Shown here: one piece after another, positions 34,061 to 35,826 of the stretch
Layout: each line of letters opens with the position of its first letter
Position numbering within the stretch: the stretch's first letter is position 1
Origin: Acidilobaceae archaeon
Lineage (GTDB): Archaea; Thermoproteota; Thermoprotei_A; Sulfolobales; Acidilobaceae
Direction: 5' to 3'
DNA length: 35,942 nucleotides
NCBI GenBank assembly: GCA_026986415.1
Contig: JALSOR010000083.1
Coordinates: 1-35,942 of the forward strand
Program-made: the position numbers and the translations under genes
Notes under the pieces: model-generated
The model's input: only the letters and a program-made list of their open reading frames with translations
The model's database searches: none
What the model was told of the DNA's origin: nothing

Positions 34061-35200
34061 TCACAGCTCCATGAGCCTTTTCACGGCCTCGATCGGGTCT
34101 ACGAAGGCCTCTATACCGTTCTCTCTAAGTATCTTCCTGCCCTCCTCCTCGTTCGTCCCTGCAAGCCTCACTACTATGGGCTTCTTGACCTCTCCAAGCT
34201 CCTGGAACGCCTTAACAATGCCCTTAGCTACCTCGTCACACCTTGTTATCCCGCCGAAGATGTTCATGAATATCTTCTTTGTCTTCGGGAACTCTATGAG
34301 GAAGCTGACAGCAGTCTTCACATGCTCGGCGTCAGCACCACCGCCAATGTCTAGGAAGTTGGCCGGTTTCCCGCCGTACTCGTAGACTAGATCCATAGTC
34401 GTCATTGTGAGGCCTGCACCATTACCTATGATTCCTATGTCGCCGTCGAGCTCTACGAACGCCAGCCCTAGCCTTCTAGCCTTTATCTCCCACTCCGTGT
34501 ACTCGCCCGTCTCCTCTAGAATATCCTTCTGGAGCTCTGGATGCTTGTAGAGGGCGTTATCGTCAACTATGAGCCTTGCATCGAGCGGTATAACCTCGTC
34601 GCCCACGAGGGCGAGAGGGTTAGACTCTGCTAGCTCGCCATCGTAGTCCATGAACATGTTGTAGAGTGCTGTGAGGAACTTGCTGAAACTGCCCAGGGCC
34701 TTCCCTTTGAGGCCGATCTTCTTGCCTATAAGCCTGGCCTGGTAGCCTTTTAGGCCTATGAACGGGTCTACGTGCGTTCTAACTATACTGTCGGGCTTCT
34801 CTTTAGCTATCTCCTCAAGATCCATACCGCCATACCTGCTTGCGAGTATTACCGGTTTCCTCTCGCTCCTGTCTATGACGATTCCAACATACAACTCCAC
34901 GTCGTGGGGTATAGCCTCCTCTATGAGGAGGAGCTTGGGTACTATCCCCTTGATAGGCTTGTTGAACAGCTCTTCGACCTTCTCCTTCACTTCCTCCCAT
35001 GTCCTAGCCATTTTTATGCCGCCAGCTTTTCCCCTGCCTGCCACTAGCACCTGGGCTTTAACAACTACTGGCGGCTCGAGCCCCGCCTCTTTCATTTTTG
35101 CTATCGGGTCTTCACCTTTCCTTATGAGGACCGACCGGGGAACCTTTACGCCATACTTGTCGCGCAGTATCTCTTTAGCCTCATACTCGAACAACTTCAA
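34061..35200 (-). CDS. sucC: Succinyl-CoA synthetase beta subunit
   Basis: The 379-residue product is the ATP-grasp beta subunit. It has [17 protein letters not shown] at the start, [16 protein letters not shown] in the ATP-grasp domain, [21 protein letters not shown] and the C-terminal [15 protein letters not shown] that contacts the phosphohistidine loop. It pairs with sucD downstream. The start is TTG 35200, with GGGTATGAG upstream and a TATA-like sequence about 40 nt in front. Confidence 0.95.
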
Positions 35201-35323: not shown

Positions 35324-35390
35324 GTGGGGATGAGGAGGGCTGTACTCGCTGATAGGCAAAGGGTGAGGAAACCTTTAAGTTCCGACCCAT
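35324..35390 (+). ncRNA. Box C/D guide sRNA targeting 16S rRNA
   Basis: The 67-nt element begins with GTGGG (35324-35328), which pairs with CCCAT (35386-35390). C box GATGAGG begins at 35329 and D box is CCGA at 35382-35385, giving a 3-nt GAT bulge, two G-A pairs and a GG/CC helix, a textbook kink-turn. D' CTGA is at 35349-35352 after a 15-nt guide; C' GTGAGGA is at 35363-35369. The 12-nt D guide, AACCTTTAAGTT, contains CCTTTAAGTT, which is perfectly complementary to AACUUAAAGG of archaeal 16S rRNA, the site of the universal 907R primer. By the D+5 rule the target is the second U of that segment (about position 912 in E. coli numbering). The D' guide target, complement CGAGUACAGCCC, is unknown. 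Confidence 0.8.
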
Positions 35391-35475
35391 AACACGTGGA
35401 CGGATAAAATAATTCTAAAAGACACAGCCACTACGGGAGTGGGCCGGCGGAATGAAGAGCCGTGTAAAGGGGGAA

Positions 35476-35491
35476 CCGGCCTATAAGCCGG
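35476..35491 (-). terminator. Hairpin after the HTH gene, possible terminator
   Basis: On the minus strand, CCGGC, a six-base loop and GCCGG form a short stem just downstream of the HTH stop, followed by a pyrimidine-rich run. The first half can alternatively pair with GGCCGG at 35442-35447. It may be a 3'-end or processing structure. Confidence 0.3.
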
Positions 35492-35499
35492 GATGCCCT

Positions 35500-35826
35500 C
35501 TAACCAGGCTGGCGACCGCCAGGCCTTCCTGCTAGCGCCTCGCATCTATCCTGCCGCTGGCGCCTATAGTTTTCTAGAAGCTCCCTTGCAGCCTGATCTA
35601 ACGGTTTAACCTCTAGCAGGATCATGTTATCCCGTTTAATGTAGGTGAGAAGCCCGTTCTTCCTCAACCTTTTAATTACCGCCCGGGCAGTCCTCCTCGT
35701 CATGCAAAGTTCGCGTGAAAGCACATCTACAGCCTCTCCCAGCTCTACCAGCGGTCCCCTGTACTGAAGGAGGATATACGCTGCCAGCTCCCGCTTGTTC
35801 AGCCTAGAGAGCAAGTCTACTGACAC
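35500..35826 (-). CDS. Small winged-helix-type HTH protein
   Basis: The 108-residue product has a helix-turn-helix pattern: LLSRLNKRELAAYILLQYRG, LVELGEAVDVLSRELCMTRRTARAVIKRLRKNGLLTYIKRDNMILLEV. This arrangement fits the DNA-binding wing of MarR- or other winged-helix families. The last 25 residues are Arg/Gly-rich and fall outside the fold. The GTG start at 35826 has GGGAGG immediately before it, a little too close; a TTG at 35814 is an alternative. It could regulate a neighbour such as sucCD, but no operator was found. Confidence 0.65.
   Translation of the reverse strand: MSVDLLSRLNKRELAAYILLQYRGPLVELGEAVDVLSRELCMTRRTARAVIKRLRKNGLLTYIKRDNMILLEVKPLDQAARELLENYRRQRQDRCEALAGRPGGRQPG

Follow-up and report, generated by a model that had tools for sequence, protein, structure and literature searches.

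Here we ask whether the gap between sucC and an HTH gene close to one end of a 35,942-nt stretch of archaeal DNA (hereafter the window) holds a functional guide RNA gene and, if so, which nucleotides this RNA would direct to be modified. The window is a contig of a 1.26-Mb MAG that is 93% complete, with Acidilobaceae and Desulfurococcales MAGs as nearest relatives according to sucC. An initial annotation, made from the sequence of the window, had placed in the gap a plus-strand box C/D sRNA of about 67 nt, with a complete C-D'-C'-D layout, a canonical terminal kink-turn and a D guide holding the exact complement of the 16S rRNA segment AACUUAAAGG. We explore the anatomy, conservation and predicted targets of this sRNA in order to identify which explanation of the locus fits best.

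Box layout and genomic setting

The plus strand of 35325-35389 reads AUGAGGA-GGGCUGUACUCG-CUGA-UAGGCAAAGG-GUGAGGA-AACCUUUAAGUU-CCGA, with UGGG and CCCA closing the ends. The C box AUGAGGA (35330..35336), the UG of which is invariant in 63 orthologues, is followed by the D' guide GGGCUGUACUCG (35337..35348) and the D' box CUGA (35349..35352). The C' box GUGAGGA (35363..35369), recognised by both sequence and alignment, precedes the D guide AACCUUUAAGUU (35370..35381) and the D box CCGA (35382..35385), a variant of CUGA. UGGG (35325..35328) and CCCA (35386..35389) pair into a terminal stem, of 4 bp in the window copy, that closes the C/D kink-turn. The C, D', C' and D boxes hence stand in the order that defines archaeal box C/D sRNAs, with guides in the range of 9-13 nt. 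A relaxed C-D'-C'-D pattern was found once in the whole window and in none of 150 windows simulated by a first-order model. On this anatomy, 35325-35389 is a genuine archaeal guide RNA gene of the box C/D class. The proposed class, strand and approximate size are upheld, both by the full layout and by a match at 35325-35392 of the plus strand to a covariance model that lacks the window (see below). The layout is complete as claimed, but the terminal kink-turn is not canonical, since the D box is CCGA rather than CUGA and the C box AUGAGGA rather than AUGAUGA. Both variants are common among the orthologues; the second base of the D box is C in 17/63 and U in 42/63.

The flanking genes, sucC (34061-35200) and the HTH gene (35500-35826; weak HTH_Crp_2 match), are both located on the minus strand, opposite to the sRNA. 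The same genome encodes the protein partners that a box C/D sRNA requires: genes for fibrillarin (C43:7562-8239; PF01269, E 4e-105) and Nop5 (C43:6699-7376; PF01798, E 5e-79) are adjacent on another contig, C43. A 56-aa ORF on the minus strand (35375-35545), which overlaps both this sRNA and the second RNA described in the last section and has no Pfam match, was taken as spurious.

Conservation and covariation

The element was identified in ten relatives by blastn against sucC neighbourhoods. A covariance model made from these ten and the window was then used to search 214 genomes of the order, which yielded 78 places with an E-value below about 1e-7; the counts presented here are based on 63 loci that were inspected. 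A model trained without the window recovers the window copy on the plus strand with 69.8 bits (E ~5e-21), hence its detection is not circular.

The D' guide is kept as GGCYGUACUC in 63/63 orthologues, with the exception of one last-base change in a single sequence. The Y, which faces G894 of 16S rRNA, is U in 47 and C in 16 orthologues and can pair with G in either form (G-U or G-C); one variant, GGCCGUACUC, makes a perfect 10-bp match to 16S. The base between the D' guide and its box varies freely. For the D as well as the D' guide, the distance from guide to box does not change in most of the 63 orthologues. The stretch CCUUUAAGU of the D guide is likewise conserved.

The terminal stem covaries. 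Among 62 distinct orthologues, aligned by fitting to the model, 83% of the stem cells are paired as compared to 54% in shuffles, double changes number 56 versus 17.7, and the covariation score is 0.630, while shuffles give 0.174 and slid controls no more than 0.198; a smaller MAFFT alignment of 11 sequences agrees. Loss of the boxes and guides in close relatives had been set beforehand as grounds for abandoning the sRNA, and both are retained in the 63 orthologues examined. At the level of comparative sequence analysis, this conservation settles that the sRNA is real.

Two variations on the layout were encountered. At eight loci a GC-rich hairpin is inserted precisely in the interval from D' to C', which looks like an internal k-loop that has expanded to a stemmed k-turn; such hairpins occur in several genera. 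One genome (G106) has two diverged copies of the sRNA, with the U891 guide described below in both and different D guides.

Predicted targets in 16S rRNA

The MAG lacks 16S and 23S genes of its own, hence the target sequence was taken from the 16S genes of relatives, in nearly all of which 885-917 reads GGGGAGUACGGCCGCAAGGCUGAAACUUAAAGG. Positions 35372-35381 of the D guide form 10 contiguous Watson-Crick pairs with A908-G917, starting at the base adjoining the D box, which places D+5 at U912. Positions 35338-35347 of the D' guide form 10 pairs, including one G-U, with G888-C897, which places D'+5 at U891. U891 and U912 are 21 nt apart on opposite sides of helix 27, and both guides bind within 30 nt of 16S. 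According to published criteria a guide has an uninterrupted run of at least nine Watson-Crick pairs that includes the +5 nucleotide, and a double guide has a second target within 100 nt, for which G-U or one mismatch is allowed (PMC4644070). The D guide has its 10 pairs across U912 and the D' guide its 10 pairs, one of them G-U, across U891, which by these criteria makes the RNA a double-guide sRNA. The 10-nt match of the D guide to AACUUAAAGG is indeed exact, and the pairing places D+5 on the second U of this segment, E. coli position 912, as had been proposed. That reading of the D guide was correct but incomplete, as it overlooked the D' guide, which also targets 16S.

How often would such matches arise by chance? 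A run of at least 10 Watson-Crick pairs somewhere in 16S or 23S is reached by 43 of 2000 shuffled, composition-matched D guides, hence the 10-nt match of the D guide is by itself not strong; for the D' match the number is 181 of 2000. Of 2000 shuffled guide pairs, none gave the two matches at a distance of 100 nt or less. The D match alone was therefore less improbable than had been stated. The sRNA very probably directs methylation at two neighbouring sites, U891 and U912.

Uninterrupted 16S sequences of relatives are identical over 885-917 in all but three genomes. G043 has C912. G023 and G031 read AAACUUUAAGG instead of AAACUUAAAGG, which changes A913 to U; position 913 of 16S is normally highly conserved. 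Neither of these two genomes has the sRNA. Three further relatives (G017, G025 and G059) have introns in or beside the segment, around 908 and between or within the guide targets, and lack a strong sRNA match. That loss of the sRNA follows such introns or a changed target is unproven, since a strong match is likewise missing in several genomes of the order that have an intact 16S target.

In G043 the guide base opposite C912 is G, which provides a natural test in trans. The base opposite 912 is also G in G076 and in the guides of genus g45, where the 16S of G106 is interrupted by a contig end. In G043, G076 and genus g22 the D box is displaced by 2-3 nt, which would move the +5 site to 910 or 909, and in G043 to 910.

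Comparison with known sRNAs

Dennis et al. (2015) described 489 archaeal C/D sRNAs by RNA-Seq, about half of which are double guides, and identified helix 27, together with helices 3 and 18, as a hot spot of archaeal C/D targets (PMC4644070). The sRNA of the window resembles their double guides in box order, terminal stem, guide lengths, +5 geometry, two targets less than 100 nt apart and a target in a hot spot. It differs from the RNA-Seq set in being known from sequence alone, in its CCGA D box and in a target taken from relatives. By predicted function it is an ordinary double-guide box C/D sRNA, although one that is widely conserved.

The closest published counterpart may be sR56 of Pyrobaculum calidifontis, for which Table 3 of the same paper lists 16S U894 as D target and G925/G1358 as D' targets in alignment numbering. 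From A915 of that numbering lying in helix 28 we infer an offset of 18, by which U894 would correspond to E. coli U912. Given this conversion sR56 would share its D target with the sRNA of the window, while its D' guide points downstream (~941-943) rather than to U891, and methylation of U912 has probably been predicted in the literature before, for another lineage. A partner guide for U891 was not found named in a limited search of the published C/D sRNA literature.

A covariance search with Rfam models gave nothing above gathering score and no usable match at relaxed thresholds; the sRNA falls below the gathering threshold of each of RF00095, sR1, sR5, sR41 and sR51. Sub-threshold matches to snoPyro_CD (RF00095), sR5, sR41 and sR1 align box to box, as is expected within one class, but the guides differ, hence the sRNA is not a member of these families. 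The covariance search that had been suggested as a check thus failed with the Rfam C/D families and succeeded with the orthologue model from which the window was left out. The locus is an addition to the broadly conserved guide RNAs, and one that scores below the threshold of every Rfam model.

Lineage pattern of the guides

A search of 229 genomes of the class gave 72 occurrences of the D guide with its box, CCUUUAAGUNCUGA, and 6 of the same pattern read backward. Of the matches to the D-guide pattern elsewhere in the phylum, over half are in sequence that lacks C/D boxes and is mostly coding-like, and these were discarded. Outside the order, four genomes of family f34 have both guides as in the window. 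Family f11, which we judge to be Sulfolobaceae-like, shares the D guide CCUUUAAGU and its U912 site with the window and joins this guide to a D' guide that is shifted about 5 nt upstream and pairs with 16S 883-892. Its predicted site is G886, as opposed to U891 in the window, and is still in helix 27. In families f23 and f31, which belong to other orders, the same D guide is combined with the D' guide GCUUCACC, which pairs near 16S 942; this version appears to resemble sR56 as listed by Dennis and collaborators. With its constant D guide and changing D' guide, this pattern offers a natural experiment to distinguish whether the methyl group or the handling of rRNA folding is the reason for which C/D sRNAs are retained.

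Proposed function and alternatives

The explanation that fits best overall, and of which we are confident, is that of a plus-strand box C/D sRNA of ~65 nt with both guides on helix 27, by which U891 and U912 would be methylated. Transcription of the plus strand would yield the ~65-nt RNA, the C and D boxes would fold into a terminal kink-turn and the C' and D' boxes into an internal one, and L7Ae, Nop5 and fibrillarin would, as in other members of the class, assemble on both. Pairing of the D' guide with 16S 888-897 and of the D guide with 908-917 would engage both sides of helix 27, and the +5 rule predicts that fibrillarin methylates U891 and U912 (E. coli numbering) at the 2'-OH. While bound, the RNP may keep helix 27 and the adjoining strand of the central pseudoknot open during assembly. 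This predicts two precise methylation sites in the 16S switch helix, of which the U912 region is known to influence decoding and the response to streptomycin.

The alternative that survives best, although we consider it unlikely, gives this last step the main part: the sRNA would mainly serve in 30S assembly to keep open helix 27 and the strand of the central pseudoknot, with methylation at one site or at neither. It would account for guides that occupy both strands of a single helix and for D' partners that vary by lineage yet stay close to the helix 27 region, and a chaperone role has been proposed for C/D sRNAs (PMC4644070). Against it stands the constant spacing from guide to box in most of the 63 orthologues, as methylation depends on this spacing whereas binding does not.

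Combined with methylation, such a role does enter a joint reading of the lineages, which we put forward tentatively and rate somewhat below an even chance. An ancestral guide RNA would have kept its U912 D guide over much of the Thermoproteota while the D' guide was replaced by lineage (U891, G886, ~G942). What is conserved would then be not a fixed pair of methyl groups but the function of holding and marking the strand of helix 27 and the central pseudoknot. In the genus of the window this RNA would stand in tandem with a second C/D RNA, with both guides of the latter on U34 and C17 of tRNA-Val(UAC).

It is far less probable that the conserved element is a 5' leader or regulatory element of sucC or the HTH gene that gives no free RNA. 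Its position between two opposite-strand genes might suggest so, but the sRNA is encoded opposite to both, and the orthologues of other genera, which occur in both orientations, are at least ~1.3 kb away from sucC or at another place in the genome. An element that shifts relative to sucC and flips between genera is hard to reconcile with the leader of an adjacent gene. The notion that box-like motifs arose by chance between two genes and match 16S by accident can be dismissed: about 2% of shuffled guides do reach a 10-nt rRNA match, yet the layout never appears in simulated windows and conservation in 63 genomes with a covarying stem already refutes this explanation.

A second C/D-like RNA downstream

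A separate C/D-like RNA, absent from the initial annotation, is located at 35446..35520 on the plus strand, 57 nt downstream of the first, and overlaps the 3' end of the opposite-strand HTH ORF. It consists of a stem GGCGG/CCGCC that encloses a C box AUGAAGA, a guide, an internal hairpin, a second guide and a D box GCGA. We refer to it as C/D-like, since the window copy has degenerate D' and C' boxes. Guide GCCGUGUAA complements the anticodon loop and guide UAACCAGGCU the D arm of tRNA-Val(UAC) of the same genome; by our own reading the predicted +5 sites are U34 in the anticodon loop and C17 in the D arm. The 29 homologues show no change in the conserved cores UGUAA and ACCAGGC. Guides of Pyrobaculum that target tRNAs have been reviewed as using only one guide per RNA (PMC7994747), which makes a two-guide tRNA sRNA unusual, but perhaps not unprecedented, as a U34 and G18 pair on tRNA-Gln was reported for Sulfolobus acidocaldarius (PMC7668247). 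The second RNA and tRNA position 38 were compared in the 19 genomes that provide both sequences, and do not covary consistently in trans.

The tRNA-Val(UAC) genes of three genomes (G015, G007 and G026) have an apparent intron immediately 3' of position 37. For G007, a 9-nt match exists between the unspliced tRNA-Val(UAC) and the guide of the second RNA.
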